Shown piece after piece: positions 1,430 through 34,501 of a stretch of DNA of 56,696 nucleotides (position 1 is its first letter; each line of letters opens with the position of its first letter). Source of the stretch: a virus. Location: the IMG/VR virus record IMGVR_UViG_3300025326_000036, positions 1 to 56,696 of that record. One strand, written 5' to 3'. Position numbers and translations under genes: made by a program. The notes beneath the pieces were generated by a model. The model was given only the letters and a program-made list of their open reading frames with translations. It was not told the origin of the DNA and ran no database searches.

Positions 1430-1441
1430 GGTCACACCTCA

Positions 1442-3699: not shown

Positions 3700-4251
3700 C
3701 TATGCCCTATACCAGTTGTTATCCGTAACGGAGCGAACCAGCCTGGTGCCCACACCCTGCACATCGAGGTCCACGTACTCCTGACCCTGCACGGTGCCGG
3801 TTGCCGGTGTGATCCTGACCGGATTGGCCGATGAGTCGGTTTTGAATATTTCGTAGTAGGCGGGTGCCAGGGGATCGTCTGCGGATAGGATGTTGGCGTT
3901 GAACGTGGCGGCTGCGGCATCACCGAATATCTGGAGGGTTGCCCCGATGCTGCCGGTGTCGATGCCGGCTACCGTGTCTGCCGTGTAGATCATCAGACCG
4001 TCCTCATCGTAGAGCGCCATTGCATAGCTGCCGGATAGCCACACATCGGCTCGGCCACCGGCATCAAGTATGACGGGGTTGCTGTTGGGCGTCTGACCGG
4101 TGGCGTCGGTGTATGTTGATTTGGGGAAGCTTTGCCCGGGGCCAGCGACAGTGGTCGGTTGGGCGGTGTAGAGTAGAGCGCCGGCAGCCGGCATACCTGA
4201 CGACAGGAACTCGGCAAAGCGCGGCATGGGACAGAGGACTGTCAGAGACAT
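3700..4251 (-). CDS. Tail fibre/tailspike N-terminal-type protein
   Basis: A 183-residue protein whose N-terminal half carries a motif common in phage tail proteins: GALLYTAQPTT, KSTYTDATGQTPNSNPV, LDAGGRADVWLSGSY, ALYDEDGLMIYT. This domain normally attaches tail fibres or spikes to the virion. The C-terminal half is a small beta-rich region ending RLVRSVTDNNWYRA. It has no beta-helix, so it probably acts as an adaptor or a short appendage. It is the first gene after a promoter at 4309-4337. The ribosome site (GCGGGTACCCC) is weak. Confidence 0.65.
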   Translation of the reverse strand: MSLTVLCPMPRFAEFLSSGMPAAGALLYTAQPTTVAGPGQSFPKSTYTDATGQTPNSNPVILDAGGRADVWLSGSYAMALYDEDGLMIYTADTVAGIDTGSIGATLQIFGDAAAATFNANILSADDPLAPAYYEIFKTDSSANPVRITPATGTVQGQEYVDLDVQGVGTRLVRSVTDNNWYRA

Positions 4252-7300: not shown

Positions 7301-7536
7301 GCGTCAGCTACACCCTTGCGTGTCGGGGTGCCGAGTGACTGACCCTTAGCTTTACCCCAATTGCGTACCCGGGTGCCAGCCGTACCCTCGTCGGCCAGGA
7401 AGTCGCTGGCTGTCTTGCGTGGGCCTGCGGGCGCCGTGCCACCGTGCTGCGCGGCAAGCTGATCGAGTATCCCACCGCTGCTGGCTGCTGGAGGCGCTGC
7501 GGCGTGCTTGGCTGCCAGGTCGTCAAGGATTCCCAT
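4339..7536 (-). CDS. DNA-ejection (internal virion) protein with ADP-ribosyltransferase-like insert
   Basis: A 1065-residue protein in the position of P22 gp16. The N-terminus holds a duplicated motif, GILDDLAAKH then GILDQLAAQH. Residues about 85-135 are a Gly/Ala zipper (membrane-inserting type) and the rest is largely helical and charged, as in ejection proteins. Residues about 545-700 match the ART-PolyVal type of ADP-ribosyltransferase fold: IEVWHGS, NNGFVFSTKDVAEKY, then AGGHDGIIF and SDPSKFKNAT. That stretch (about 5440-5900) is clearly more AT-rich than its flanks, suggesting a late insertion. The family of the insert is recognised by pattern; activity is not proven. If active it would be delivered into the cell with the DNA. 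Confidence 0.75.
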   Translation of the reverse strand: MGILDDLAAKHAAAPPAASSGGILDQLAAQHGGTAPAGPRKTASDFLADEGTAGTRVRNWGKAKGQSLGTPTRKGVADAVRPILEGGGAVAGGIGGAAVGGLTGGVTIPLVGAIPGATAGTVAGSALGYATGNQLADMIEGVPNRTATQQVGKTVNQLATGAGLEMGGALLAKGAGALVQGGKNLIQRGAPLSPVRNRINAAQEFGDAATGVNGNWKTTDPGFAERTTVTDSNRLAQVKQATRNRDDALFNRLNADRPGQRPLQSSAGQREGGKLLALEQKQRLKYKTRGTSDGAMPFDERVNLNSAVNADAALTRVGRQVGRGEAMPASEYASTTGERIVKSVQESEAQVAPEVKRLFNQPEFKYEMPRAEFDDALQTTLDSNLDETARKAVEGVATFAKNADKTAGGLKSIKETIDGRISQAIQSGDRAAASALQRVKQGVWDSFEAMGKSAEAGDVAIHEGRIIYPSKVRSQMATLDERIAAEQAAGAKPDLVAMRADMGTQPGMMKMTGESDAMYQARLTAAYEKAGKPVPTVGGAGADEGIEVWHGSRHLHEGGLSLDRAGEQAGDLTNNGFVFSTKDVAEKYRYSGLSREELVKMFGEPDVKKIEGRTTLLHGRLNLKNPLKVDTTGYDYGAKHYTDDKGKIRSKALVEYIEQMKAGGHDGIIFTNVKDTPGGKADSTVYYISDPSKFKNATDKPPQSPALTELTARRQTLTDTLTAAQPAEDVAASYASARRYTREEQKDRFARDTIAGILKKGDQYGGLNTPLEQIPDKVFTPRGAFELVRAKMPYVPATGPVDQAARMTAGRQAAGELVYPHVVTRFTKAAIEPSTGVMSVPAAERFLGDNAEVLNTLGLTRDVEQIIKGQLPKAIRAHLDGLGVDSLRNPTMSARMAIKFAKKQFGPSIGKYFGSTRAVMDWAHTLEISERSNVVATLRGSNTAEKLDLLALGDKVSMFGAVLAKAGWLMNSVKGAVGAVVKNPMKAAEGRVDQIIQDGLLDGNVAASLMEIYRAKRYSDISQRAATTLKPYFIQMLADPEGTAAAGGAVVEGAAGALSAVTGGK

Positions 7537-7547
7537 GTGTCACCACC

Positions 7548-8264
7548 TCAAATGCTTATTAACTCGCAGAGTATCCCGCAATCGCCCATAATCATTGGTT
7601 CGTGTCGCCCGCGTTCGGGGTCAAGTTCATCAAGCCATATATTTTTTTTGATTATCGGGAAACCGATGTCTCTTTCCATTTTTGCGCGGGATGCAAATAC
7701 TTCTGGAAAATCAACCCTGATTTTATTCCAATAACCCATACCACCCTTCACGCAACCGATACAGTTGTTGTTGTGGTAGCCTAGATCATACATTGCTGGT
7801 CGTCTGATTCCGCTTGCAGCGAGAACAGCGTGAGCGTGTTCCTTTGTCATTTCTCTATCAATGAGGGGGAATAGATGTTCATGATTCGGCATATTCGACA
7901 CTATGTCGGATGCTCTATCTTTCTCATCGAAATCTAGACCCCACACTATACGCAGATTGCCTTCATTCTCGTATTCAAACTGTTTACGTACTGTTCGTTT
8001 CAAATGTTTAGTGCATACTGCACCAGTTTGACGCGACCTAATGAATGAGTTATACCGGCATACTGAATCAACACTCTTAAATGGCGACTGCCATATCTCA
8101 ACCTCTTTCCCAAACCATTGTTCACAGTCTTTGACGAATCGCATGGAATCAGGATGTTGGTCGTCAATATGTGTGTACATGACACGCTGTATCTGGTCTA
8201 TGGCTAGCTTAATCGCAACTGCAGATGACCCACCCGCGCTAAAATAACCTACTGTTTGATCCAT
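7548..8264 (-). CDS. PAPS-reductase / N-type ATP pyrophosphatase-like protein
   Basis: A 238-residue protein of the adenine-nucleotide alpha-hydrolase fold. The pyrophosphate loop near the N-terminus is FSAGGSSAV rather than the usual SGGKDS. CTKHLK lies at residues 84-89, and NNNCIGCVKGGMGYWNKIR at about 166-183 matches the Cys pair of phage PAPS-reductase-like proteins. Known relatives include PAPS reductase and DndC; the substrate here is unknown. The gene is AT-rich compared with its neighbours and sits between two ejection genes, so it looks like an inserted accessory gene. GGAGGGGTGAA precedes the ATG. Confidence 0.8.
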   Translation of the reverse strand: MDQTVGYFSAGGSSAVAIKLAIDQIQRVMYTHIDDQHPDSMRFVKDCEQWFGKEVEIWQSPFKSVDSVCRYNSFIRSRQTGAVCTKHLKRTVRKQFEYENEGNLRIVWGLDFDEKDRASDIVSNMPNHEHLFPLIDREMTKEHAHAVLAASGIRRPAMYDLGYHNNNCIGCVKGGMGYWNKIRVDFPEVFASRAKMERDIGFPIIKKNIWLDELDPERGRHEPMIMGDCGILCELISI

Positions 8265-10384: not shown

Positions 10385-11443
10385 CTACCAGCTCATCGAG
10401 GACGTATCCCCGAAGCTGCCGAAGTCTACGTTATTGATATTTCCACCAGCCTGACCGTAGGTCTGACCGTTTGCCCCACCGTTCAAGTAGTTCTGGTACA
10501 ACTGGTTCTGGTTGTAGGCACCGTAGGCGTTGACGCCGGTCTGGAGCACGTTACCCACCATGTTGCCCTGCTGCTGCGCGTTCTGCATCTCGATCTGTCC
10601 GTTCATGCCGGCTGTCTGAGTGGCAATCTGCCCCACGTTGTTTGCCATCCCCATGCCGGCTGCACCGATCTGACCGGCTGCGGTCTGCCCCGTGCCGGCT
10701 ACCCCGCTCAGGCGGTTGAACAGGGTATTCTGAGCGTTCAGACCGGAGTTGTACTGGTCCATCTGGCTCCCGTAGGCCCGCTGGTAAGCTGCGCCGTACT
10801 CCTGGCTACCGAGTTCCTGACCGTAGTTCTGGAGGGCTACGCCAAGGTTGCCCGAGCCGAGGTTGCCGCCCGCCGCTCCTGCTGCGGTGATCGCGTTCAC
10901 ACCCTGCTTCATTCGGAATGCGTACCCGGGGTCCGTCTGCACCTTGCTCTGGTCGAATTGGAAGGTGGGTGTGTTGAGCAGGTTGCCCGGGTCCGATACA
11001 CTCATACCGGGGGTTGTGACCATGGTTGCCGGTTTATCAACAATGGAGCCATCCGGTCCACGATACCATTCCTTGCTCAGATCGTACTTGAGTAGGGTAC
11101 CCGGGTCGTAGTACGACTCCGTGGAATACGACCCACGGTTGTTGAGGGTGTCTATCTCAGCGGTCGTAAGTCTCTGGTACGCTGTATTGAGTGATTGGGT
11201 ATCTACACCCATGCGGTTGGCTAGCTGGTTGACCGCCCCTGTGCCGGCTGTGAGCCAGGGGCGCATGTTGTCCTGCTGAACGTCGAACTGGTATTTCTGG
11301 AGGGCGGTGGCGTCACCGGCTGCCGCTTTATTGCCGGCTGTCGCATTGGCTGCTGCGGCACTGGACTGATTGGACGAATATACCGCAGCACCAGCACCCA
11401 CGACTGCCGCACCCGCTACTGCTGCCGCTACCCAACCTGACAT
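10385..11443 (-). CDS. DNA transfer/ejection protein, P22 gp7-like
   Basis: A 352-residue protein beginning with an Ala/Gly hydrophobic helix (AAAVAGAAVVGAGAAVY), then FDQSKVQTDPGYAFRMKQG around residues 164-182 and NYGQELGSQEYGAAYQRA near 207-224, a recurrent pattern in podovirus DNA-transfer proteins. The C-terminal third is Gln/Gly/Asn-rich. It is expected to be packaged in the capsid and released to help DNA cross the envelope. GGGAGGACACC precedes the ATG. The start overlaps the cupin-SET gene by 16 nt. Confidence 0.8.
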   Translation of the reverse strand: MSGWVAAAVAGAAVVGAGAAVYSSNQSSAAAANATAGNKAAAGDATALQKYQFDVQQDNMRPWLTAGTGAVNQLANRMGVDTQSLNTAYQRLTTAEIDTLNNRGSYSTESYYDPGTLLKYDLSKEWYRGPDGSIVDKPATMVTTPGMSVSDPGNLLNTPTFQFDQSKVQTDPGYAFRMKQGVNAITAAGAAGGNLGSGNLGVALQNYGQELGSQEYGAAYQRAYGSQMDQYNSGLNAQNTLFNRLSGVAGTGQTAAGQIGAAGMGMANNVGQIATQTAGMNGQIEMQNAQQQGNMVGNVLQTGVNAYGAYNQNQLYQNYLNGGANGQTYGQAGGNINNVDFGSFGDTSSMSW

Positions 11444-12240
11444 GGTGTCCTCCCTAGGAGCCTAAGCGTCTCTCTATAGTTCGTGGTAATTTCTTCACCG
11501 TCATTTCCACCCATGCACCCCTGTATGTTGCGAGTCGCCATGAGGTAATTATCACCATTGGGTGCCTTGATCACTACAGCGTTAGGGTTACCGGAATGGT
11601 TCATGTAACGACCAATTGGAGTACGTAAACCGTCCATGAACACAGGGGCGATCAACTCACCGTCCGATATGTTCGCTGTCGCAAAAACACCCTTACCGTG
11701 CAATTTGGAATCGGACACCTTGCATTTATGGATACCGTATGGCATCGGTGCGACGTTATCAACTTGGGTTTCGGCTTGTACATCATCCTCGGTAAGACCC
11801 CATTCGATAAGCATCTGCTGGTAATCATCACTTGACGTATTGTCGGGCAACTCCTTGATACGATCCGGTGCGTCCGACCAGTCGTAAAGTAGTTGCTCCA
11901 TTGTCTCAACATCCGTGCATGGTGCAGCGTGGATGTTAACCCATACTACCTCATCGTGAGAATAAGCACATTTCTTGCCGGGGGAACTGATCATGGTAAA
12001 CGGTGCTACGAGTTCGGTCAGGCTACCGTCATTGTTCAGTACGGTGATACGACCCTTGGTCAGCATACTGATGTGATTGTAGCGGTGATTATGACCAACA
12101 CTCACTACGCCTGCCGGTATGGTGAGTTCCCGCATGTAGATACCAGGCATGAAAATATGTCGCACGGACCCCTCGGCCTGCGGCATCTTAAGTATCTCAT
12201 CCTGTAACTGTTTCACTCGCTCATCGGTCATACGGGGCAT
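11428..12240 (-). CDS. Cupin-SET domain fusion, putative protein lysine methyltransferase
   Basis: A 270-residue protein with two recognisable parts. Residues about 35-105 look like a cupin barrel (GHNHRYNHISMLTKG as metal motif 1, then SHDEVVW). Residues about 170-256 carry SET motifs: HGKGVFA (181-187), RYMNHSGNPN (211-220) and GEEITTNY (248-255), which in known enzymes bind S-adenosylmethionine and complete the active site. The start MPRMTDER was chosen because AAGGAGCC directly precedes it. It has its own promoter (12259-12287). The target could be a virion or host protein; this is inference. No pre/post-SET cysteines are seen. Confidence 0.75.
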   Translation of the reverse strand: MPRMTDERVKQLQDEILKMPQAEGSVRHIFMPGIYMRELTIPAGVVSVGHNHRYNHISMLTKGRITVLNNDGSLTELVAPFTMISSPGKKCAYSHDEVVWVNIHAAPCTDVETMEQLLYDWSDAPDRIKELPDNTSSDDYQQMLIEWGLTEDDVQAETQVDNVAPMPYGIHKCKVSDSKLHGKGVFATANISDGELIAPVFMDGLRTPIGRYMNHSGNPNAVVIKAPNGDNYLMATRNIQGCMGGNDGEEITTNYRETLRLLGRTPCQVG

Positions 12241-12258
12241 GGCTCCTTGTCGCACGGC

Positions 12259-12287
12259 ATTGTACACCGTGTGACAGCGTGTGGCAA
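12259..12287 (-). promoter_or_regulatory. Sigma70-type promoter for the cupin-SET and ejection genes
   Basis: On the minus strand TTGCCA (12282-12287), 17 nt, TACAAT (12259-12264). The spacer contains GTCACACGG, like other promoters in this genome. It lies between the needle-like gene end and the cupin-SET ribosome site. Confidence 0.55.
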
Positions 12288-12291
12288 GCTA

Positions 12292-12750
12292 TTAATACAC
12301 CACCATCAGCACGCCGGTTGCCGTCCGGTATGGCACACTGGCAATCAGCCCACCGGCCAGAGCAGCAGCGTTGTCGGCATGGACCGGCAGCGCGGTAAAA
12401 TCCGGTGCGGCGTCCAGTACCGCTCGGTTTGTATGGGCGATGTCATCGTGCTGGTATGCCCCGAGGTGAGCTGCCACCGCGCCGGCAGCCTCACCGCCCA
12501 CGTCAGCGAGTGTGACGGTCACATCGGCTGTGAGAGCATGGCCGTTGACCGTGCGTGTATCCGGTACGGCGCCGGTCACCTGGTCGGCAGAGTAGTCGCC
12601 GGCCTGCGGCATCACGGCGCCAAACCGACCGTTGAACCCCGTGACAGCCCGGTCGAACGTCTGCTGAAACCATTGCAGCCATCGGGGGCTGGTCACCGTG
12701 CTGGCGGGGTCCATGTGTCTCAGGGGTGCCTCTACCGGTGCGCGGCTCAT
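12292..12750 (-). CDS. Small tail/needle-type structural protein
   Basis: A 152-residue protein following the gp10-like gene, the place of the P22 tail needle. It contains TRTVNGHALTADVTVTLADV, a motif common in phage tail fibres, and ends with ALPVHADNAAALAGGL followed by PYRTATGVLMVVY, a frequent terminus of virion-associated proteins. The start MSRAPVEAPLR was chosen for its ATGA overlap with the gp10-like stop. Whether it is the needle or a fibre attachment protein cannot be decided by eye. Confidence 0.6.
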   Translation of the reverse strand: MSRAPVEAPLRHMDPASTVTSPRWLQWFQQTFDRAVTGFNGRFGAVMPQAGDYSADQVTGAVPDTRTVNGHALTADVTVTLADVGGEAAGAVAAHLGAYQHDDIAHTNRAVLDAAPDFTALPVHADNAAALAGGLIASVPYRTATGVLMVVY

Positions 12751-14417
12751 ACTGGTTGTACCACGTACCCGAGGACCACCCGCTTGCATGGGCTGGAGCA
12801 GCGTAATTGGAACACCCTGTCTCGCGCTCGACCAAGGGACCGCCATACCAGCCGTTGCCGGTAGTCGCCCGGGCCACCCATGCTGCGCGGATACTCGCTG
12901 CTCCAGGTGTGCCCGCTGTCACGGCTGATGCTCAGTGCCATCACGGGGGCAACCGGTTGACCGAGGATAGTGACCGATGGTGGTAGGGTGTACCCGCTAC
13001 CCGGGTCGGTCACCGTGATACCTGTCACGCTGCCGTGGGTCAGTGTAGCCGATGCCGTTGCGCCCGATCCGTTGCCGTCCACCGATTGCATCAGCACTGT
13101 GACCGACATACCCGCGATATAGTCTGCGCCACCCTGCAGGATGGTCACACCGGCCACGGCGCCTGCCGGGTCCAGCACGGCCTGAGCGGTTGCCGGGGTG
13201 GCTGGCCCGTCCAGACCTACACCCGACTCGATGGCTACCTGCAATTCGCCAATGAATATGTCACCCAAGTCGGCATCAGCGAGATGCTGAGTACGCTGCA
13301 GCGAGGTGATCGGCTGACCAGCATCCGTATGGTACTGGCTGCCCATATCGTACAGCCGACCGCTCTGGTAGTCACCAATCAGGTGCATCCCGTAGGCTCG
13401 GACGTAGCAGTTACCCCTGTGCCTGCCGACCGTGCCACCGCTGACCCTCTCATGCCACATCTGCGTGGTCAGGTCGTAGACCCATGTCCAATTGTCAACC
13501 GGGTTGGTGATGACGTAGAACGTATGCCCCTCGTCGCTATAGCAGTAACCGAAGCATTGGCTGAGGTCCGTTGACTGGCTCATGTGCCAGATGACAGCGG
13601 GCGGGCTGACCACGGTCGGCATGTAGCCGTTCAGCATGACGACGCCGATGAAGCAATCCCGTTCATGCGCTAGAAACAGGACCGACGACCCGCCGAGAGC
13701 GACCGACCAGGGGGCGGGGGTGCCGTAGTTGATCACCGCGCCGGCCATGCGGCTGTAGGGGAATCCGACACTGGTGGCCGTACCGTTATTGTAGTAAATC
13801 TCGGTGCTGAACTCCTTGATGAAAAATAGCTGCTGGTACAGGCTCAGGACCGTTTGCACCGAGTCGGGTTGTGCCTGGATGGGGGATGTCGCCAAGGGGT
13901 TCCATGTCAGCCCGTCATAGATATTGCTGGCGTAGGCTGACATGGTGCCGTCTACCCCGATGAAATAGCTGTCGATGAACGTCAGGTGGGTGAATGGCAT
14001 GGCGACGGTACTGAACGCCTCTGTGACCGTGTTATAGATGTAGGTAGCCGCGCCGTCTGCGATGGCTATCTGGTTGCCGCCGATCCCGTCAGCCAGCAGA
14101 CCGTTCTGAGCCATGCTAACCCTGCCGGTGGAGGTGGTCAGGCTGCCGAGTGCCGCTGATACCTCGCCCGTGGCGCTGACACGTATCAATGCGTTGCTCT
14201 GGACAGCGTACAGCAAGCCATCCGGCCCGGTGATCACACCTCGCACGGGGCTGGCTATGCCACCGCTGAACAGACGTAGGCCGGGGGTGCCGATGAGCAT
14301 GGCTATGCTGGTGGACCCCGGGGCGTTGGTCAGCTCGGGGTACCAGTTGATCAGCCTGGCTGACTCCTGGTTGATCGAGCGGCCCTGATAGGCGCTCGGG
14401 ATGGATGGTAGACGCAT
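12747..14417 (-). CDS. P22 gp10-like packaged-DNA stabilisation protein (tail hub)
   Basis: A 556-residue protein with hallmarks of the phage stabilisation family: SAYQGRSINQESARLINWYP and IGTPGLRLF at the N-terminus, VGRHRGNCYVRAYGMHLIGD and SGRLYDMGSQYHTDAGQPI in the middle, and RLVWRSLGRARDRVFQLR at the end. It closes the portal after packaging and forms the tail hub. Residues about 405-485 (GVTILQGGADYIAG, TVTDPGSGYTLPP) are a repetitive beta-rich stretch within the usual strand order, probably an inserted decoration. Confidence 0.85.
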   Translation of the reverse strand: MRLPSIPSAYQGRSINQESARLINWYPELTNAPGSTSIAMLIGTPGLRLFSGGIASPVRGVITGPDGLLYAVQSNALIRVSATGEVSAALGSLTTSTGRVSMAQNGLLADGIGGNQIAIADGAATYIYNTVTEAFSTVAMPFTHLTFIDSYFIGVDGTMSAYASNIYDGLTWNPLATSPIQAQPDSVQTVLSLYQQLFFIKEFSTEIYYNNGTATSVGFPYSRMAGAVINYGTPAPWSVALGGSSVLFLAHERDCFIGVVMLNGYMPTVVSPPAVIWHMSQSTDLSQCFGYCYSDEGHTFYVITNPVDNWTWVYDLTTQMWHERVSGGTVGRHRGNCYVRAYGMHLIGDYQSGRLYDMGSQYHTDAGQPITSLQRTQHLADADLGDIFIGELQVAIESGVGLDGPATPATAQAVLDPAGAVAGVTILQGGADYIAGMSVTVLMQSVDGNGSGATASATLTHGSVTGITVTDPGSGYTLPPSVTILGQPVAPVMALSISRDSGHTWSSEYPRSMGGPGDYRQRLVWRSLGRARDRVFQLRCSSPCKRVVLGYVVQPV

Positions 14418-14448: not shown

Positions 14449-14889
14449 TTACGGGTCAGGTATCTGGAAATTATCAGCGAGATACCATGCTGCCCCGATG
14501 TTCGTCGCTCGCACTTGGAATTTGTTACTTGAACTGGCGGTGACCGGGAATGTCAGCGCCTCGGTCTTATCCTCGCCAGGGCCGCACGTCACGCTGTCAC
14601 GAACAGTCACACCCCATATCAGCTCGATTGTGACTGTCCCTGTCCCCCCGCTGCACCTTGCGTCAGCGGTAAAGTTGCCGGTTCCGTTGGGAATGATGAT
14701 GTTGGTGCCGGTGTCTGAGATGCCCCTGCACGACACGCTGGTGTAGCCGTTAATCGCGTCACCTTCAGTTATTGCGGGGATGCTGCACTGCCTGCCTGTC
14801 ACCATCAGCAGCATCTCCGGACCTCCCGCCCACGATAGCGAGGCGGTTAGCAGGAGGGCAAGGGCGGTTAGGAGTGTTCTGAGTTTCAT
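14449..14889 (-). CDS. Small exported beta-rich protein
   Basis: A 146-residue protein with a textbook Sec signal peptide (MKLRTLLTALALLLTASLSW, cleavage after AWA near residue 21). The mature part has four cysteines (C35, C54, C78, C102), suggesting two disulfides in the periplasm or outside, and is Gly/Thr-rich and probably beta. No family was recognised. It starts the signal-peptide island lying between the gp10-like and gp4-like genes. Confidence 0.65.
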   Translation of the reverse strand: MKLRTLLTALALLLTASLSWAGGPEMLLMVTGRQCSIPAITEGDAINGYTSVSCRGISDTGTNIIIPNGTGNFTADARCSGGTGTVTIELIWGVTVRDSVTCGPGEDKTEALTFPVTASSSNKFQVRATNIGAAWYLADNFQIPDP

Positions 14890-15002
14890 GCTGGCTCCCG
14901 AGTTTCAGGGTTGGATTGTTTCACATCACAGCCTTTTTGGTACCCAAGCATAAATGCCGCCGCTATGGACGCATACCATGCAAAAATAATCAGATAATTC
15001 AT
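14886..15002 (-). CDS. 38-residue single-pass membrane protein
   Basis: MNYLIIFAWYASIAAAFMLG forms one transmembrane helix, followed by a polar tail QKGCDVKQSNPETREPA. AAGGGAGGATTT precedes the ATG and the stop overlaps the next start (ATGA). The very short anchor-plus-tail layout is like small phage membrane peptides such as holin-like or spanin-like proteins. Function unknown. Confidence 0.5.
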   Translation of the reverse strand: MNYLIIFAWYASIAAAFMLGYQKGCDVKQSNPETREPA

Positions 15003-15031
15003 AAATCCTCCCTTCGGACATCCCTAAGTTA

Positions 15032-15053
15032 TTTGCGGCAAACTAGCCGCAAA
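15032..15053. terminator. Hairpin after the large tailspike gene
   Basis: An 8-bp perfect stem, TTTGCGGC / GCCGCAAA, with a 6-nt loop sits 7 nt beyond the stop of the 1099-residue gene. There is no U-run on either strand, so it may pause transcription or protect the mRNA 3' end instead of acting as a full terminator. Confidence 0.4.
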
Positions 15054-15059
15054 CAGTGA

Positions 15060-18000
15060 TCATGGCGTGTACCCCTCTCCCGCGATGCCGCACTCTGTTT
15101 TTGTTGGTCCTACTTCGCAAACGTACTTGTAGCGCTTCGATGCCGTGAGCGCCCCAGAGAAGCCGGTAGTTCCCATCCAGCCGAATGTGCTGCCTACTGT
15201 CGGCCATGCCAGCGTAGTCACTCCTGAAGCCGCTGTGTCGATCTGGATGGTGACGTAGCGCACCTTGCCGGATGAAGGGTTGCCAGAGAAAACGACTGAC
15301 TGCGTCGTCGTGCCTGTCGGGGCAAACTCGTATTTCCCCTTGGCACTGGCGTCTACTGCGAGGTTGCCGGTGGTGGAGGGTGCGGCGGTGCCTGTGGAGT
15401 AGTCGGTGTTGGCTGTGGCTGAAATCGTCGTCCCTGTAATCGCCCCCGCAGTAACTGCCCCCGTATTTGTCACTTTGAACTTTGTCGCACCCTGCTTTAT
15501 CAGCTCTAGCAAATCTCCAGCACTCGCCGTAATGTCCTCGCCCTTGATGATCGGGTAATTGGAGTTGTATGCACCGAGGGTCTGAGCGCGTCGGACATAC
15601 AGTGTGGGGTGCCATATCGAGGCAACGAGTACCCCCGTCTGAGAAACTTCCATGCCTACCCCTAGCTCTGAGGTAGCCAAACCCCCCTTCCCTGTCGTAG
15701 ACGCTCCGCTAAACCCTAAACCTGCCGGGCTATATGCATACACCCCATTAGCGGTCCCGGCGGCCCATACACCTGTTCCCGCAGTCCCGGTGTTATTTAC
15801 ATAAATTCCCTCGTTACTGTTCAGTGCACCAGTAAAGTCATACTTACCAGATGCGGATATTGCAGGAAACTTACCCGAGGCGTCGCGCTTAACAATCTGA
15901 TTATTTCCTGTTCCGCTGTTTAGCGTGAGAGAAGGAGTGGGGGTTGACTGTGAAACCGTAATGTCTCCGTTGGCCGAAGACACTCCTGTCACCGATCCTG
16001 TCCCTGGAGTGAATCCCAGAGCTGTTGTTACGTCGGACGATGTCAGAGTATGCCCGCTGACGGCTGTACCTTCTGATGGGTACGTGGCGAACTGCCCCGC
16101 TGCGCCACTATTAACAGTGCCAGTGCCACCTTCGGTTGTTCCCGTATCTGCCGTGCAGGTGTACGCCCCTGTTGAAGCTACGAATGCGCTGACATGATTG
16201 CCTGATGCGCAAGAAACATCGGATGGTAGGACCGGCTTATTCGCAATACTGGACCCACCTGATGACGCAGCCCAATCAATGTAAGCCGCTGAAAGCCCCG
16301 ACGCTGTTCCACTCACATTGTCCAGTGGCGGGTTATTCCCTGCATGGGTTATGTTTATCATCCTATTGTGAAGCGTTTTAACTAGGGCAGGGTCGGCGGT
16401 AAAACCATTCCCGTCCACGACTAATGGAGTATCTGCGGCTACGGCTGTGATCGTGTTGTTGGTTATATCCAGATCCACCAAGTCTGCATCTTGAACCTTG
16501 AATATGGAACTTTTATTCCCTGTATTATTCCAAAAGTGAATTGTATTACCGTAGAACTTCACGCCATCTCCACCACCACGGATACTGACAGCCCCGTAAT
16601 CGCTGGCCCCGATGATGGTAGTTCCGTGAACGTAGACTTCAGAAATATTGTTGTGCATGTCAAGAGCCATCATGTAAAGAGGGCCAGCGGTACCTGCTCC
16701 TGGCACGCCGTACAGTGCTGGGTCTTGAGTTATGAAACTGTTTGAAATTTCAATCCCACTGGAAGTAAACTCTCCAAGGGATAAAGACAGTGAGTGTTTG
16801 GAGTCAGCAAATGTGGAGTGGTCTATGGTGACGGCATGGCCGTACACAGTCATTCCGTAGCCGCATGGCCTGCCGCCGTCGCCGCCATTAGTTATACAGT
16901 ACGGCGCCTGTCCGATGTAACCAGTTGACTGCACGTTGCTGATTAGGCCACGCATGGCGGTTACTCTCATCCCCGCATTAGCGTAATAGGAACCTTGAGC
17001 TTCAATATTGTCTATTTCTATGTCTTTACCCTGTACCCACATGCCCGAGGATGCTAGCGTGGTTGCACTGTTGTCGAAGATTAAATCGTGGACCTCTAGC
17101 CCATCGACTCTATAAAGAACTTGGAACGTATCAGCGGTAAAAGTGGTCTTTGCTGGCACACTTATACTTGCCAAGTTTCCTACAATCTTTGTTATTTCGG
17201 TAAAAACCCCACGTTGGTACGAGCTACCGCTAGTACTGTACGGCGTGCTATTGGCGGATACAACTAAGTCTCCGACCACTGCGCCGTGACCAGCGGGAAG
17301 GGTGAAGGTGTTGACTCCTGCTGTCCACTCGACAGCTTGGCCTGTAAGAGTGGTCTTGCCCCCTCCAAAACTTAAAGACACAGATTCTGCGTTATTTACG
17401 ATGGTGGCTCCATTACCCCACAATTTTATGGAGCTGACAGAGTAGCAAGTGTCGGAAACATTATATTTCTTGCTCCCATTAAGATATACATTGGCCCCTG
17501 GAGACCCTGCATTGATGATTGAGCAGATAGGCGCTGAGTCATTTACTGTACCGTCTCCTACAGCATCAGACCAATCAGCATAGATTTGAGTAACTTTGCT
17601 GCCAAGCTTGAGTCTGTTTGCCGTAAACCCTTTCAGCCATGTTTCCTGTCTCACTTCCAGTGGCCCGTTTATTGTCAAGTCGCCTGATGTCCTCACGATT
17701 GCGGCCCCATGCATGACCCTAAGAGTAATGTTGGCTGGTATGGTGACGCTTGTAGACATGGCCCAGTCACCAGGGGACAAGACGAGGGTTTTGGTCGCGC
17801 TACCGATACCCGTTATTGCTGCAATGATAGTTGCTGAGTTGAGCGCCCCGCCGTTGTAACTGGCTGCGTAAACCTCGTTGTCCGGCTGCAGCGCCGTAGC
17901 CCCCTTAGCCGCACCATCCAGTACCGTAGCCGCATCCTCGCCGCCGAGTTGGAGACTGTTGGCTGCTGTGCCGGTGGTGGAGAGCTTGCCGGCGAGAGCC

Positions 18001-18359
18001 ACAGCCTGTGCCGCCGAGTACGAGTCGAACGCCGCCTGCGTTACTCCGCCAGCAGGTATGCCCGTCGCTGATATCGTACTGCCTGTAAAAGCAATACCAT
18101 CACCAGCCACCAGTGCTTTTGGTCCCTTGGTAAACGGGTCCATGACGGCTATGCTGGCTGCGTATGTCGTGGAGGATATGAGCAGGAACACCAACAGCAA
18201 CAATTTCCTGACTGGCATCCTGGATATCGGGTCATACTGATGCGCGGCGGGTGCCGGTGTGACTGCATCGGGTGCCGGTGTGACTGCATCGGGCACCGTA
18301 TACCACAGCAGCCGACCGATAACCAGCCCGATGATCACACCGCATAAAAGATATAACAT
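15060..18359 (-). CDS. Large beta-helix tailspike with two N-terminal hydrophobic segments
   Basis: A 1099-residue protein. Residues 1-20 are a membrane helix, then a heptapeptide repeat (PDAVTPA twice), then a second leader starting MPVRKLLLLVFLLISSTTYA at residue 48. TAGGAGGCGAC supports the first ATG; the internal one has only a weak site. Residues about 255-720 are a pectate-lyase-like parallel beta-helix (YADWSDAVGDGTVNDSAP is a typical entry motif). The C-terminal third is Ser/Thr/Gly-rich and ends in a cysteine-bearing beta domain. It is probably a polysaccharide-binding or degrading spike; export signals are unusual for one. Confidence 0.65.
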   Translation of the reverse strand: MLYLLCGVIIGLVIGRLLWYTVPDAVTPAPDAVTPAPAAHQYDPISRMPVRKLLLLVFLLISSTTYAASIAVMDPFTKGPKALVAGDGIAFTGSTISATGIPAGGVTQAAFDSYSAAQAVALAGKLSTTGTAANSLQLGGEDAATVLDGAAKGATALQPDNEVYAASYNGGALNSATIIAAITGIGSATKTLVLSPGDWAMSTSVTIPANITLRVMHGAAIVRTSGDLTINGPLEVRQETWLKGFTANRLKLGSKVTQIYADWSDAVGDGTVNDSAPICSIINAGSPGANVYLNGSKKYNVSDTCYSVSSIKLWGNGATIVNNAESVSLSFGGGKTTLTGQAVEWTAGVNTFTLPAGHGAVVGDLVVSANSTPYSTSGSSYQRGVFTEITKIVGNLASISVPAKTTFTADTFQVLYRVDGLEVHDLIFDNSATTLASSGMWVQGKDIEIDNIEAQGSYYANAGMRVTAMRGLISNVQSTGYIGQAPYCITNGGDGGRPCGYGMTVYGHAVTIDHSTFADSKHSLSLSLGEFTSSGIEISNSFITQDPALYGVPGAGTAGPLYMMALDMHNNISEVYVHGTTIIGASDYGAVSIRGGGDGVKFYGNTIHFWNNTGNKSSIFKVQDADLVDLDITNNTITAVAADTPLVVDGNGFTADPALVKTLHNRMINITHAGNNPPLDNVSGTASGLSAAYIDWAASSGGSSIANKPVLPSDVSCASGNHVSAFVASTGAYTCTADTGTTEGGTGTVNSGAAGQFATYPSEGTAVSGHTLTSSDVTTALGFTPGTGSVTGVSSANGDITVSQSTPTPSLTLNSGTGNNQIVKRDASGKFPAISASGKYDFTGALNSNEGIYVNNTGTAGTGVWAAGTANGVYAYSPAGLGFSGASTTGKGGLATSELGVGMEVSQTGVLVASIWHPTLYVRRAQTLGAYNSNYPIIKGEDITASAGDLLELIKQGATKFKVTNTGAVTAGAITGTTISATANTDYSTGTAAPSTTGNLAVDASAKGKYEFAPTGTTTQSVVFSGNPSSGKVRYVTIQIDTAASGVTTLAWPTVGSTFGWMGTTGFSGALTASKRYKYVCEVGPTKTECGIAGEGYTP

Positions 18360-18367
18360 GTCGCCTC

Positions 18368-18649
18368 CTACTCTAAGATAACGTCGTCATACTCGACGTA
18401 GGTGACCGACGCTCTATCCGCCCACTTGGTCGCCAGCGTTTCGCCCGGGGCGCCGAGGTAGAATACAATGTGCTCGTCACCGTCCGTGGTGCTGTGTTTG
18501 CGAATGATGAACATGCCGTCAGAGTGCAGACCGCCGTAGTACTTCGGCTCGCTCTGCATGTCCATCCTGACCACTTCAAAGGCATCCGGCCACTTGGCTA
18601 CCGATCTATCCAATCGGTCGGCATGGAACAGGAATGGTAAAGGACTCAT
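18368..18649 (-). CDS. Hypothetical protein, 93 aa
   Basis: A 93-residue acidic protein (MSPLPFLFHADRLDRSVAKW at the start, YVEYDDVILE at the end) with no signal peptide, unlike its neighbours. AGGAGAATACCA precedes the ATG, the same leader that precedes the secreted protein at 22127. No family was recognised. Confidence 0.55.
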   Translation of the reverse strand: MSPLPFLFHADRLDRSVAKWPDAFEVVRMDMQSEPKYYGGLHSDGMFIIRKHSTTDGDEHIVFYLGAPGETLATKWADRASVTYVEYDDVILE

Positions 18650-18675
18650 TGGTATTCTCCTATGGTACGGGCCAT
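18646..18675 (-). CDS. Nine-codon minigene MARTIGEYQ
   Basis: An ATG preceded by GGAGGCGATAAC opens a nine-codon frame ending GEYQ-stop, with the TGA overlapping the next ATG. The same GEYQ-stop/ATG junction ends the gp4-like gene at 22124. It could be a coupling leader, or the remnant left when a gene was cut out or a junction was duplicated. Confidence 0.25.
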   Translation of the reverse strand: MARTIGEYQ

Positions 18676-18676
18676 G

Positions 18677-20401
18677 TTATCGCCTCCGTTGTTTCGTCAG
18701 AATCACACACCTGGTCGCCTCAGCGTTCAGCGCGGCATCGGTGCTGGCATAGCAGTAGGTCTGCCGCGCCAGGTTTTGCAATACTTTGAACGGTGCCGAG
18801 TATGTGACCGAGGGGGTGCAGCCTGCGCCGAAGCAGTAGCGCGTGGTTGCCGTCTCGCTGGCTGACAGGGTGACCGTCTGCGTTGCGGCGTAGCGGCCTG
18901 CGGGTTTGTTGGCGGTGGTTGTGGGTACTACAAGGTCTGCGGGGTTAGCCGAACCGTCCAGTGTTATCATATAAGCATTGATTGGACCTTCTGCGGTGTT
19001 CCAGTTCGATCCCCACAGTACTTTAGTCCAGTCACGGTTGACCGTAGCATGTGGTTCGGCGTTGTAAGTGGTATTCCTGATTGACATGGTTCTACCGATG
19101 CGATGCCATGTGGTGCTGTTTGCTACAGTCGAATCTATTTTTACTGCAAATAATTCATTCGCTCCCCAACCTCTGCCGGTAGAGTCAACTGGTCTGTACG
19201 ATGACCAAAGCGCCCACCCTTTTGTTGTGCTATTTACGTCCTGCGATGCTCGCATGGAAATATGGCCTTGGTTGTACTGTCCTGATCCGCCGCCACACGT
19301 CGAAGTAAGATAGGAGTATGTACATGGGAACGTGACAAGCTTTGGCGCAACGTAAGTTGGAGCGATATCGCTTAGTTTATGGATATAGCCAAGCCGTTCC
19401 TTTGTGACCTCACTTGTGCTCTCCCACATTCCGACAAGAACCTCAACACCGTTAACATCATATCCAATATCCTGATGTTCGTGGTTGTTAGTAATGTACC
19501 CGATATAATTTAACTCTTTGTCAAAAAGTTCTGTGCCTGTCCCTCTGACATGTCCAAGTGAATCGTTACCATTACCAATAACAGTATAGTTAACAATCAC
19601 GTAATCACCTGAAGGGCTAAAACCCATCCAGTCCACAAATTTGTTATTTGCCGCCGAAGGGCATGTTCCGCCGCATAGATCGTCAGGCGTTTTGTCTGCC
19701 AAAATCGTATCTGTTTGTGCATCATACGTGAAATATTTAAGCTGTTTCCCGCTTGCGGGTGCAGCAGCTTTATAACATCTTAATGCCCAATACCTGTCGC
19801 TGTAGGACGAATTTCCTTCATCACCGTTATCAACTCTATCCCCATTGTCTGTTCCATCTGTGCATGTAAAGTTGTGCAGCGCAGTCAGGGTATCAGTGCT
19901 TGGTACGTATGAAGATATAGTGAGAAGTTTCGCCACATATAATAAATCAGGATCACTATTTGACCATTTTAAATCTTTTTGCGCGTGTGACTGCAATTTT
20001 GGTATAGCTTGTACGGCTGCATCAGTAGCAGAACTGTACAGTATAGGGTTACTATACTGGTCAGTCAGGACATACTTAGTTCCATCAGCGTTCCATGCCT
20101 GCTGTTTTGGATAGTTCGGCATAAACTGGCGTTCTTCGCAGGGTAACCACCCCCCTACTCCTGGGTCGCAAACAGTTGGGGCATTGATGCGTTTTATGGT
20201 CGTCCCGAACAGCGGGTCAACATAGGTCGATCCAAACGCAGGTTGCGCCGGCAATGGCCATGTTGTACAGGGGGTCACCCCTGTACTCACGCAGGTGTAG
20301 TCCACCGAGTCCGTGAGCAGCCCTGTGAACTGAGCAGGATCGGCGTGAGCAAAAGACGCCCACAAGATAGATACCGCCGTCAGCACTATATATCCCATCA
20401 T
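18677..20401 (-). CDS. Secreted beta-propeller-like protein with chitobiase C-terminal-type domain
   Basis: A 574-residue protein with a Sec leader ending ASFAHA near residue 21. The body has repeating blade-like units (WNADGTKYVLTDQYSNPILY, GFSPSGDYVIVNY, DRYWALRCYK, RDWTKVLWGSNW), as in WD40/TolB/oligogalacturonate-lyase-type propellers. Residues about 500-555 (AATQTVTLSASETATTRYCF and KVLQNLARQTYCYA) match the chitobiase/beta-hexosaminidase C-terminal-type beta domain. Many cysteines suit an oxidising compartment. The start overlaps the upstream stop (ATGA). A carbohydrate-related role outside the cell is plausible; such a protein is unexpected in a phage late operon. Confidence 0.55.
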   Translation of the reverse strand: MMGYIVLTAVSILWASFAHADPAQFTGLLTDSVDYTCVSTGVTPCTTWPLPAQPAFGSTYVDPLFGTTIKRINAPTVCDPGVGGWLPCEERQFMPNYPKQQAWNADGTKYVLTDQYSNPILYSSATDAAVQAIPKLQSHAQKDLKWSNSDPDLLYVAKLLTISSYVPSTDTLTALHNFTCTDGTDNGDRVDNGDEGNSSYSDRYWALRCYKAAAPASGKQLKYFTYDAQTDTILADKTPDDLCGGTCPSAANNKFVDWMGFSPSGDYVIVNYTVIGNGNDSLGHVRGTGTELFDKELNYIGYITNNHEHQDIGYDVNGVEVLVGMWESTSEVTKERLGYIHKLSDIAPTYVAPKLVTFPCTYSYLTSTCGGGSGQYNQGHISMRASQDVNSTTKGWALWSSYRPVDSTGRGWGANELFAVKIDSTVANSTTWHRIGRTMSIRNTTYNAEPHATVNRDWTKVLWGSNWNTAEGPINAYMITLDGSANPADLVVPTTTANKPAGRYAATQTVTLSASETATTRYCFGAGCTPSVTYSAPFKVLQNLARQTYCYASTDAALNAEATRCVILTKQRRR

Positions 20402-21777
20402 TTATACCCCACTGAAAGGTTGTCAAAAGTAATAATGTTGGTCGTCGCCCCTGACTGTAGCTGTACACCGAATGTTGCAGCGTTGAGCGTAACCCCTGCT
20501 GTTTTGATCGCTGTTTCAGGAATAATATCGGCACCATTTATTGTCAGACTGTAGTAACCATCAGTGGTTGCTGTGTCGGTACTCCCTTTTATCATCATTG
20601 CGATTGTATAGGTAATTCCGGCCTGGAACGCATAGGGGTAGTTGGCCGATGTGTGCTGTGTCAGGTCGCCATCTTGATACTTGATCCGTATACCGGCTAT
20701 CACCCCTCCAGAGGTGTAAACTTCCGGCATGGCGGTCATGCTGTTGATGGGACCGGACACTCTGCCAAGTTGGCTGAAATTGCCGGTTGCAGTGACGCTT
20801 CCGAATTTTACATCTGCTTGCCACCGGACATCCTGATGTGCCGTCATCGCGGTTTTGTTGGCTGTCGCAGTTGTGGACGACGCACTCATGGTGACTACTA
20901 GAGCGTTACCGTTGACGCTCATTTGGGCTAGCGAATCAGTCATCGAACTAAAGGCATTGGTTGTGGTGCAGGCACCAACTACGGTAGAACTTACGCCGTC
21001 TGCACAGGTCACAGAGTTAGCCCAATAGATAGTGTAGGGATCGACTGCCAGCGTCGTACTGCTGAACGTACCGCTTACGCCCCCGATGGTCACAACGGTG
21101 TCGGTAGCCGCGGAGTTGCTGGCCGAACTGGTATGTTGCGCCCTCACAGTGTCGCCGTTGCTGACTGTGCCGCTGCTGGCAGTGAAGCTCCCACTGGCGT
21201 TAACGTCATACGTGCCGCCCGTCACGCTGATTACCGATGCCGTGTCGATACCGGTAACGGTAATAGTGGCAGAGGTGATGGTGGATGAAAGGGCTACGTC
21301 TGTCTGATCCGTAAAGATGAAGGCATCCGGCGTTGAATCGACCCCTTCAGGGGCTACCCCCGTCCCACTCAACGCAGCTCCCACCCTAGCTATGTTCGGC
21401 GCAGAGTAGCTCAAGAACCCGCTGTATGCCACCCCTGCCACCGGCTCAAATGCCACCTTTGCCGTGCGGCTGCGGCCCGATGAGATGTTGCCGAATGTGG
21501 TTGAGCTGTAGAGCCTGAACCCGGCACCAGTGACGCTGGTTGTCACATCCTCGGCGGTGTCGTTGCCTGAGTTCGACAGGGTGAACGTGGCACTGGTCAG
21601 CGTGCCGGTGGAGTGATTACTGAATGCGAGGGACGATGGTGACCACGATAGCGACGGCACCAAATCGACCCATTGCGACCCCACTGACCGACCGCCTATA
21701 CCCCCGAGCGGCCAACTGATCGCTGCAGCCGAGCCGCACAGCGTCAGCAGTATGACCACACACGCTGCCCGTTTCAT
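20398..21777 (-). CDS. Secreted Ig-like / LamG-like multidomain protein
   Basis: A 459-residue protein starting MKRAACVVILLTLCGSAAA, a Sec leader; this start overlaps the upstream stop (ATGA), so longer in-frame starts were dropped. Residues about 40-125 look like an ASPM/SPD-2/Hydin-type Ig domain (LAFSNHSTGTLTSATFTLSN). Residues about 150-245 form a second beta sandwich (ITVTGIDTASVISVTGGTYD). The C-terminal 190 residues resemble a concanavalin/LamG jelly roll (YSLTINGADI, FDNLSVGYK). These are adhesion or glycan-binding folds. Domain names are by pattern, not search. Confidence 0.55.
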   Translation of the reverse strand: MKRAACVVILLTLCGSAAAISWPLGGIGGRSVGSQWVDLVPSLSWSPSSLAFSNHSTGTLTSATFTLSNSGNDTAEDVTTSVTGAGFRLYSSTTFGNISSGRSRTAKVAFEPVAGVAYSGFLSYSAPNIARVGAALSGTGVAPEGVDSTPDAFIFTDQTDVALSSTITSATITVTGIDTASVISVTGGTYDVNASGSFTASSGTVSNGDTVRAQHTSSASNSAATDTVVTIGGVSGTFSSTTLAVDPYTIYWANSVTCADGVSSTVVGACTTTNAFSSMTDSLAQMSVNGNALVVTMSASSTTATANKTAMTAHQDVRWQADVKFGSVTATGNFSQLGRVSGPINSMTAMPEVYTSGGVIAGIRIKYQDGDLTQHTSANYPYAFQAGITYTIAMMIKGSTDTATTDGYYSLTINGADIIPETAIKTAGVTLNAATFGVQLQSGATTNIITFDNLSVGYK

Positions 21778-22127
21778 TGCTGCTGCCACTGGTGGGCGCC
21801 AGAGACGTTCATGAACGGTGTGGCTATGTTCTTGACCCCCACATACCACGATCCCCCGGGTATGGTGAATTGTGGGTAGGTACCCTTGGCGCTGGTTGAC
21901 ATGAGCCTGGCCGAGCAATCCGACGCGCAGTAGATGCCATACGCCAGAAAATTGGTCAGATCATAGGTCGCGCTGGCGGTCGCCGTCGCTGAGTACAACC
22001 CATTGGGTGACCAGCCCTGTACGTAGGTACCTCGGTAGAGTAACGACCCGTCGCCCTGGTTCTCGGCTATGGCAGCGGTGACGGTCAGGGTGAGCAGCAC
22101 GGTCAGGGTGAGTAGGATACGTGTCAT
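21774..22127 (-). CDS. Small secreted protein
   Basis: A 117-residue protein with a clear Sec leader (MTRILLTLTVLLTLTVTAAI, cleavage after IAE or AIA). The mature part is Tyr/Ser/Ala-rich with one close Cys pair (YCASDC) and probably beta-structured. AGGAGAATACCA precedes the ATG, which overlaps the gp4-like stop. No family was recognised. It opens the secreted island from the capsid side. Confidence 0.6.
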   Translation of the reverse strand: MTRILLTLTVLLTLTVTAAIAENQGDGSLLYRGTYVQGWSPNGLYSATATASATYDLTNFLAYGIYCASDCSARLMSTSAKGTYPQFTIPGGSWYVGVKNIATPFMNVSGAHQWQQQ

Positions 22128-22810
22128 TGGTATTCTCCTGTCAGTATGTTATACCTACCGCCCGTGACGCTCGGCACATCGGTCCTCATGATCATGGGTC
22201 GGGCGTTCATGTTCTCGATGACCTTCATGGTCCTCTCAGCCATCATCCGTATGTCGGGTGGCGGGGGGCCGGTGCGTCCGAGCGGTCTCCAGCAAGCCAT
22301 TGCGCCGTTGTAGGTCAACATGGCAAGATAGGCGTCGGGGAAAGTCACCGTGTCGGTCAGGGCGCTGAACGAGGTCAGGTATTTGAGACTGTCGATGGTC
22401 AGGGTGTCGGCGGCATCGGGCGTGGGGTTGATGTGGATGATACCCGGGGCGGCTGACTGAGTGGCGCCGGCATCGTAATAGAGTTCGCGTGTGGGTGACG
22501 GCCATACGCTGTACTCGCCCTGGGTCGCTAGGTCGAGTGGTAGACCGTTGATATGGGCAGCGAGGATGCTAATCGGCTTGGCGGTGTTCAGGTCGGCTGA
22601 TGGGCCGATGGTGTAGGCGGCCACACCGGCTGTCAGGGTGAACGACTCGGTGGTGGGGGTGAGTTGGACCAGGTGCCGAGCTGATAGGCTGCCAAGTAGC
22701 AGGTTGACGTGGCGACGGACTTTCTGCATATCACTGGCTTCCGGTTGCTCGTCAAGGGTCACGACGCCTACGACCTCAAGGATCGCTATGAATAGTTCTC
22801 GTACCTGCAT
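22124..22810 (-). CDS. P22 gp4-like head-tail adaptor / tail accessory factor
   Basis: A 228-residue protein. VRRHVNLLLGSLSARHLVQL near residue 30, the FTLTAGVAAYTIGP strand pair and PDAYLAMLTYNGAMACWRP near residue 160 match the gp4 tail-accessory family, which binds the portal after packaging and may have muramidase activity in P22. The start MQVREL follows GAGGTGTGACC; an upstream GTG lies inside that ribosome site. It ends GEYQ-stop overlapping the next start. Confidence 0.8.
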   Translation of the reverse strand: MQVRELFIAILEVVGVVTLDEQPEASDMQKVRRHVNLLLGSLSARHLVQLTPTTESFTLTAGVAAYTIGPSADLNTAKPISILAAHINGLPLDLATQGEYSVWPSPTRELYYDAGATQSAAPGIIHINPTPDAADTLTIDSLKYLTSFSALTDTVTFPDAYLAMLTYNGAMACWRPLGRTGPPPPDIRMMAERTMKVIENMNARPMIMRTDVPSVTGGRYNILTGEYQ

Positions 22811-22824
22811 GGTCACACCTCACG

Positions 22825-30520: not shown

Positions 30521-31105
30521 TCACGACAGACCTACGAGTGATTTGGGTGATTCGTCTTTGTCCAGGGTCTTCTTGAACCCGATACCAGCCGCCGTGTGAT
30601 ACACGATCACTCCTTCCGGTTTCATAAAACCCGGGGCGGCCACACTGCCTTTGGACCTTAGATCGTTTACACACTCGTCCACCATCTCGGTGGTGAAGAT
30701 ACCCTTGTAAAGCGTCGGTACTACCCCGCAGCAAGCTGGTCGGTCTTCACCCCACCGGCTTACGTTGAACAGGCTGAATCGCTTGTCCAGCAATCCATAT
30801 TTGCGTTGGATACCCTGGCCCCACCACTCGCCGAAATGTTGACCGATTCCGAGATTCATCAGGTCTTCTGCGTTGGTCTGGCACCATTTGGCAAACCCGT
30901 AGTTGTCATCCTCGGGGGTGACCCACCGTGTACGGCTGCCGGCGAATAGACCGATGTTGTTGCTTTTGAAAATCAGTTGTTCAGGGTCGTAATCCCACTC
31001 GGAAAGGTCCGAGATAAACACCTGAGCGTTGGTACCGTCGATCTTTTCGGTAATGATTACTTCGCGTGAAAGCCTTGCCATCTTTGGAAATCCTACGAAT
31101 TGCAT
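30521..31105 (-). CDS. T4 Rnl2-like RNA ligase family protein
   Basis: A 194-residue nucleotidyltransferase. Motif I is EKIDGTN with the adenylated lysine at residue 21, motif III is FGEWWG (91-96), motif IV EGVIVYH (164-170) and motif V FKKTL (177-181). It lacks room for the C-terminal domain of T4 Rnl2 (334 aa), so it is a minimal ligase. The start MQFVGFPKMARL was chosen because GGGGGTTAT precedes it and the longer N-terminus is the terminase region in another frame. It is expected to seal RNA nicks. Confidence 0.85.
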   Translation of the reverse strand: MQFVGFPKMARLSREVIITEKIDGTNAQVFISDLSEWDYDPEQLIFKSNNIGLFAGSRTRWVTPEDDNYGFAKWCQTNAEDLMNLGIGQHFGEWWGQGIQRKYGLLDKRFSLFNVSRWGEDRPACCGVVPTLYKGIFTTEMVDECVNDLRSKGSVAAPGFMKPEGVIVYHTAAGIGFKKTLDKDESPKSLVGLS

Positions 31106-31137
31106 ATAACCCCCTTGACCCCTCCGGGCCTGTGTAC

Positions 31138-32958: not shown

Positions 32959-32961
32959 CGG

Positions 32962-34050: not shown

Positions 34051-34080
34051 AGGTAGTATCCTTTTGAAGAGTTATTTTTG

Positions 34081-34112
34081 TGGTCGGAGCGGTTGGATTT
34101 GAACCAACGGTT
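34081..34112 (-). pseudogene. 3' fragment of a tRNA gene (T-arm to CCA)
   Basis: The minus strand carries a T-arm GTTGG/TTCAAAT/CCAAC, then CGCTCCG, A and CCA, i.e. the last third of a tRNA. No matching 5' half, D-arm or anticodon arm lies within tRNA distance; the space upstream is the HNH gene, whose stop is 1 nt away. A G72/A73 end implies C1-G72, characteristic of bacterial tRNA-Pro. It may be a relic broken by the HNH gene or an attachment-site core copied from a host tRNA. Confidence 0.55.
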
Positions 34113-34431: not shown

Positions 34432-34501
34432 TGATAGTCTCCTAAACATAAGATGATGCGTTTGTAACATATGTTTTGAACAACTGTCAACAAGTTCAAA
34501 T

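Follow-up and report, generated by a model that had tools for sequence, protein, structure and literature searches.

A putative exchangeable cassette of Sec-exported, fibre-type proteins between the gp4- and gp10-like genes of a P22-like phage

The window analyzed here is the whole 56,696-nt stretch of the IMG/VR virus record IMGVR_UViG_3300025326_000036. Profile matches identified a P22-like structural module on its minus strand, in which the portal, scaffold, coat, gp4-like, gp10-like and ejection genes follow the order of the P22-like (Lederbergvirus-type) module. The window differed from the latter in the addition of an island of predicted exported proteins between the gp4- and gp10-like genes, and in a head-binding-like domain that lies apart from any spike.

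The gp4–gp10 interval contained six larger genes and a small one (Table 1). Five of these late genes started with Sec-type leaders, as did a spike gene, S0, which adjoins the endolysin gene. An earlier note had claimed a leader island at this place and a sixth, lipoprotein-like leader on the spike at 1442. Both were present, with two starts corrected. ATGA overlaps coupled gp4, S1, S2 and S3 to one another, and likewise the small transmembrane ORF to S5. The GC content of the island was 53%, compared with 59% in the flanking late genes. A chimeric contig was considered unlikely, because other IMG/VR contigs carry the same island and a relative, L010, carries its own version.

Table 1. Positions of the leader genes, their neighbors and other genes mentioned in the text (window coordinates unless a locus is named)
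Feature	Position	Strand	Remarks
Portal, scaffold, coat, ejection genes		-	PHROG matches: phrog_156, phrog_8865, phrog_283, phrog_598, respectively
Endolysin, M15 peptidase	1007-1435		No leader
S0, tailspike-type	1442-3145	-	Lipoprotein-like leader (LLCG/CGSP), score 8.2 SPII; adjoins endolysin
g183, stand-alone 183-aa protein	3700-4251	-	Leaderless; 86% homologue in G401
1065-aa protein	4339-7536	-	Possible injected polyvalent protein
PAPS reductase-like	7548-8264	-	In late structural operon
279-aa gene	11428-12267	-	Fibre-type/SET fusion
gp10-like head closure Hc3	12747-14417	-	phrog_578, E 6e-83; right border of slot in reading order
S5, 146 aa	14449-14889	-	SPI leader, score 7.8
38-aa transmembrane ORF	14886-15002	-	GGGAGG upstream; hydrophobic segment; ATGA overlap with S5
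S4, tailspike-like	15060-18359	-	First ATG leads into TM segment, Pro-rich linker and leader
93-aa gene within island	18368-18649	-	No leader, no family match
S3, 574 aa	18677-20401	-	SPI leader; conserved C-terminal domain of ~84 aa
S2, 459 aa	20398-21777	-	SPI leader; ASH/Ig-like N-terminal domain
S1, 117 aa	21774-22127	-	Sec SPI leader, score 8.3; ATGA-coupled to gp4 and S2
gp4-like adaptor	22124-22816	-	SU10_adaptor PF24175, E 3e-11, and phrog_12985; left border of slot in reading order
RNA-repair set	30521-34578	-	RNA ligase 30521-31270; RtcB 32962-34050; tRNA-Pro 34502-34578
Serine DNA invertase	36471-37034	-	phrog_125; adjoins HNH gene
GH66 dextranase/CITase, Sec leader	L153:10083-12008; L133:8083-10008		gp4–gp10 slot, acetic-acid-bacteria (pro)phages
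Second-site fibre, leader-bearing	L146:17714-19551		Acetic-acid prophage
Lysozyme-like gene, Sec-type leader	L192:3849-4499		Reverse-complement coordinates; endolysin-type by eye
Three consecutive leader genes	vir555 (L163, BK063671):2905-7524		Tail region

Several other genes of the window were recorded. The N-terminal half of the 279-aa gene matched PHROG families of tail-fibre type, and the C-terminus of this gene carried a SET domain by Pfam (protein lysine methyltransferase, E 5e-7), an unusual fusion. A gene resembling phosphoadenosine phosphosulfate (PAPS) reductases lies in the late structural operon, and a similar-looking one is found upstream of g183 in the L010 contig (L192). The 1065-aa protein gave a weak, below-cut-off match to PF18760 (ADP-ribosyltransferase-in-polyvalent-protein). 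Further along the same strand lies an RNA-repair set of RNA ligase, RtcB tRNA-splicing ligase and tRNA-Pro.

Leaders were called by inspection together with a simple, calibrated home-made scorer, in place of SignalP. At a score of at least 7, only one of 238 background ORFs of the window was flagged. Among 40 genes of E. coli K-12, the scorer picked out only YaaX and YaaI, both with genuine-looking leaders and DUF-named annotation. Shuffled leaders were flagged in 46 of 4500 cases (about 1%), and leaders were called on 15 of 63 real slot genes versus 0 of 63 shuffled ones. At their corrected starts, S1–S5 scored about 7.2 or higher on this home-made scorer.

The leaders each had an h- and a c-region, and their n-regions were mostly charged. 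The n-region of S3 lacked Lys and Arg, and S3 had the lowest score among S1–S5. The predicted cleavage sites (marked by a slash) were MTRILLTLTVLLTLTVTAAIA/ENQ in S1, MKRAACVVILLTLCGSAAA/ISW in S2, MMGYIVLTAVSILWASFAHA/DPA in S3, MPVRKLLLLVFLLISSTTYA/ASI in S4, MKLRTLLTALALLLTASLSWA/GGP in S5 and MRHLTVLLLAVTLLCG/CGSPSPAA in S0. In sequence, S1–S5 fit the Sec/SPI pattern of positively charged n-region, hydrophobic core and small residues at -3 and -1, with S3 departing from it in the n-region. The lipobox of S0 reads LCGC, compared with the canonical [LVI][ASTVI][GAS]C. Its Cys at -2 lies outside the canonical set, and the LCGC motif is conserved in the L192 relative.

The true start of S2 was the ATG at 21777 (codon 48 of the ORF, in the ATGA overlap with S1), not 21918. 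In S4 the cleavable leader is internal, spanning codons 48–67, and the first ATG of the ORF is preceded by a strong AGGAGG. This arrangement of TM segment, linker and leader was kept in frame in L009/L159, which lacks the inner ATG. A short TM peptide ahead of a leader was therefore seen in two forms, as an in-frame fusion in S4 and L009 and as a separate ATGA-coupled ORF before S5. No small TM ORF with a good ribosome site was found before the leader genes in the islands of relatives.

The earlier note had read beta-helix, propeller, Ig-like, LamG-like and chitobiase-type domains in these proteins. The beta-helix was supported in S4, which aligned to Klebsiella tailspikes at 22–28% identity. 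For the Ig-like domain, what was found was the Pfam ASH match of S2 (E 1.7e-4), under the curated cut-off. Neither the propeller nor the LamG or chitobiase assignment was confirmed, as family matches were not obtained and the AlphaFold model of mature S3 from single sequence was uninterpretable (pLDDT 30). Comparison of S0, S2, S3 and S4 with solved-structure chains gave no sequence match, and Pfam and PHROG searches gave no match of the island proteins to beta-barrel families. The C-terminus of S0 matched phrog_3285.

The same Pfam and PHROG searches gave no family match to a virion-attachment (head-binding) domain in S0–S5, although these proteins could have a docking domain of a type new to such searches. 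A domain of this type was read by eye, as P22-type head-binding, at the N-terminus of the stand-alone g183 protein. Partial matches to it lie inside longer open frames (363–705 aa) in G402, G407, G408 and G409.

P22 itself is not known to carry anything between gp4 and gp10, and the earlier note had extended this to the relatives of P22. Relatives of gp10 were gathered from viral contigs and bacterial genomes and duplicate contigs were removed, giving 118 distinct loci in which both gp4 and gp10 were recognised. The two genes were adjacent in 67 of the 118 and in another order in one. The remaining 50 had an insert between them, so the extension was wrong for the wider group. Most inserts were fibre-like and leaderless, and many began like MATIAISALPVAT...DVLPIVQ. 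The slot itself is common, and the unusual part is the leaders.

Leader genes were found in eight of the 50 insert loci by automatic count, and in nine with L144, which had been dropped by the overlap filter. Leader genes filled the slot of the window species, that of L010 and that of a group of acetic-acid-bacteria prophages, phiAX1 among them. In L009 and L119, leader genes lie just ahead of gp4. In L013, where gp4 was unrecognised, three of them directly precede gp10. Among further relatives, neither DSL-LC05 and PBR31 nor two phages from Manatee Spring showed strong fibre leaders.

Comparison of these loci indicated that the cargo changes and the leaders stay. L010, with 85% coat identity to the window, keeps S1 (mature protein 67% identical, leader intact). 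The rest of its island consists of two unrelated proteins (621- and 583-aa ORFs), each with a leader. About 190 N-terminal residues of S0, leader included, were 54% conserved in the L010 contig, and the C-terminus there differs. The C-terminus of S2 was also found swapped in a relative, with its N-terminal domain conserved. The L010 contig also has a lysozyme-like gene with a Sec-type leader, unlike the endolysin of the window. Phage endolysins with signal peptides are known (PMC6116005).

The exchange reached beyond the P22-like module. In L156, the head module is a different one (phrog_145 portal, phrog_241 head-morphogenesis gene), and an S2-like and an adjacent S3-like gene, each bearing a leader, are flanked by the portal and head-morphogenesis genes. 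Residues 34–140 of S2 were 66% identical in this unrelated phage (L156/L162), in which the leader has diverged yet is intact and of the same type. The C-terminal domain of S3 was 52–54% identical in L156b, of which the N-terminal part is a different protein. Searches of IMG/VR for S2 and S3 homologues returned just the same phage species and this one unrelated phage.

A third setting was seen in vir555, a metagenomic virus assigned to Methanomicrobiales. The third of its leader proteins was 38% identical to the L156 spike. Apart from that gene, vir555 should be taken as a lead, not a tested relative. A wider scan with the L156b/vir555 spike gave one distant homologue, in which no leader was detected.

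By their sequences, S0, S2, S4 and the acetic-acid family (below) combine placement in the tail module with a conserved N-terminal and a variable distal part. In S3 the modularity is reversed, the C-terminus being the conserved part. Conservation of the leader-proximal part with swapping of the distal part fits fibre-type receptor-binding proteins as well as envelope-modifying morons. An invertible fibre cassette, prompted by the DNA invertase of the window, was rejected, since no convincing inverted repeats were found around the island.

A single genome scan supplied the acetic-acid examples together with a single family search, the latter matching 10 of 398 genomes. In this fibre family the leader varies and the Ala-Gln cleavage boundary is invariant. 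It is followed by a conserved module of about 45 aa and then by several C-terminal groups with no detectable similarity to one another. In phiAX1 and Gluconobacter roseus, the module-bearing protein is combined with a GH66 dextranase with its own leader. The phiAX1 dextranase matched solved dextranases over residues 23–630 of 641, which leaves no obvious virion-docking domain.

A second site in the acetic-acid prophages lies downstream of the structural genes and encodes a small leader protein. In L146 this site has a leader-bearing fibre in addition, paralleling S0 beside the endolysin gene in the window. A reading in which phiAX1 would have no spikes other than the leader genes was dropped, as a leaderless 594-aa fibre-like protein (LamG/SGNH-like by eye) was found. 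Receptor binding by phiAX1 therefore need not depend on the exported proteins alone. In a PHAST analysis, the phiAX1 authors judged the prophage to be incomplete (PMC8566455).

Proteins that fold in the periplasm tend to have even numbers of Cys, owing to disulfides. The mature forms of S1–S5 have 2, 2, 14, 8 and 4 Cys, respectively, and S0 has three or four, depending on the cut site. Parity was counted in 25 de-duplicated leader proteins, two of them without Cys, with S0 counted as odd. Even counts outnumbered odd ones by 19 to 4, compared with 244 to 319 in the leaderless proteins of the same loci (Fisher p 1.8e-4). The set was picked by leaders and not by Cys, and it is a small sample with partly non-independent, homologous members. 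Leaderless genes within the same slot gave 8 even to 11 odd. Even counts are expected of disulfide-bonded exported proteins.

The hydrophobic N-termini could also be uncleaved segments for assembly or membrane docking, used in the cytoplasm and not for export. The extra TM segment ahead of the leader in S4 and L009 points in this direction, and ejection proteins likewise have hydrophobic N-termini. Evidence against such segments comes from the mostly charged n-regions, the invariant Ala-Gln boundary, the drift of leader sequence with retention of leader type, and the Cys parity. This explanation appears the least probable of those considered here.

Taken together, late-infection export of the island proteins, as the earlier note had proposed, is well supported on sequence grounds, because leaders persist as cargo changes, the Ala-Gln boundary is invariant in the acetic-acid family, Cys parity fits disulfides and a full-length dextranase in the same slot of another phage bears a leader. 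As possible purposes, the earlier note had named alteration of the host envelope, a block to superinfection and coating of virions. The leaders appear to be kept by selection. The best reading of the proteins is that they are exported, periplasm-folded fibre proteins that would bind or degrade glycans.

Whether they all act free of the virion is a separate matter. On one account, which is the idea of the earlier note, the proteins would never enter virions and would serve as depolymerases and adhesins, either secreted or periplasmic. Their task would be to alter the envelope or matrix, to lessen the re-adsorption of progeny to debris, or to keep other phages out. The full-length, leader-bearing dextranase of phiAX1 and Gluconobacter agrees with this, as do the lipoprotein-like leader of S0, which has no recognised head-binding domain, and the location of the head-binding-like domain on the separate g183. 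Cellular exported adhesins of tail-fibre type, with a conserved domain after the signal peptide, are also on record as the Bdellovibrio MAT proteins (PMC10769870). On the other hand, the genes occupy the fibre slot of the late operon and are coupled to gp4, and a conserved leader-proximal module with swapped tips is the build of virion fibres. Moreover, synthesis shortly before lysis would leave the products scant opportunity to affect the cell that makes them. We regard free effectors only as rather unlikely.

Lysogenic conversion was also considered, in which expression in lysogens would alter the host surface. Lambda Lom, an exported membrane protein whose gene lies between tail genes (PMC12309495), acts in this way. 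Lom and other exported phage morons resemble the window in that a protein with a signal peptide is encoded within the tail region. Points in favor are that the acetic-acid cases belong to prophages, that phiAX1 carries integrases and that the GC content of the island is under that of its flanks. However, Lom is an outer-membrane beta-barrel, whereas the window has several proteins per genome, of fibre or spike type and, as far as visible, not of beta-barrel architecture. The island genes are also co-directional and start/stop-coupled with late structural genes, and the window genes that were searched gave the DNA invertase and no clear lysogeny integrase. This explanation is improbable.

We favor, with a probability of about 0.55, an exchangeable cassette of receptor-binding proteins and depolymerases, of which the members would be exported and mixed in fate. 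Late in infection, Sec would export the island proteins and signal peptidase would trim the leaders, with S0 perhaps lipidated. Folding and disulfide formation would take place in the periplasm. Lysis would then free the proteins, some to act as free glycan-active enzymes or adhesins. Fibre-type members may dock onto emerging virions via the conserved leader-proximal module, for which spikes and virions would need to meet before dilution.

For at least some of the proteins, a free or envelope-bound state is suggested by the free dextranase, by the lipoprotein-like S0 and by the absence of any head-binding domain among the family matches. The leader-proximal module, on the other hand, looks like an anchor, and anchoring to the virion would mean receptor-binding proteins built in the periplasm. 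Export through Sec is a strange choice for proteins due to be freed by lysis in any case, unless its purpose is oxidative folding. A stricter version is split-site virion assembly, in which spikes and adaptors would be Sec-exported, oxidised and assembled in the periplasm, joining the virions only during exit at lysis. We hold this version as tentative, on balance doubtful.

The usual assumption is that both the folding and the attachment of tail fibres and spikes take place inside the host cytoplasm. Phage tailspikes and depolymerases of the pectate-lyase-like type share with the island the modular conserved/variable build and, through S4, the alignment to Klebsiella tailspikes. The island proteins differ from them in predicted cleavable Sec-type leaders, even Cys counts and no recognised head-binding domain. 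The MAT fibres (PMC10769870) share the signal peptide, the conserved domain directly after it and the variable phage-fibre-like tip. They are cellular proteins encoded outside phage late operons. The MAT family is defined by a homologous domain of about 130 aa after the signal peptide, and S0, S2, S3 and S4, compared to solved chains only, gave no match. Pantoea WceF (PMC7949094) is likewise an exported protein of tailspike fold acting on exopolysaccharide; it differs in being a bacterial gene outside phage with a Tat leader. Exported phage proteins and cellular exported fibre-like adhesins are therefore already known. Among the open-access papers searched, none described tail fibres or spikes of tailed phages that are exported through Sec.

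Leader-bearing fibre cassettes were found in a P22-like phage, in a lineage of acetic-acid prophages and in vir555, as well as in a phage whose head module is of another kind. They suggest an overlooked route, in which the Sec and disulfide machinery of the host would be used for phage glycan-active proteins. phiAX1, whose source is the named strain Acetobacter sp. ATCC 21760, opens this route to testing by proteomics of virions and periplasm. Depolymerases with leaders could also be overlooked, or mis-expressed if the leader is included in the clone.
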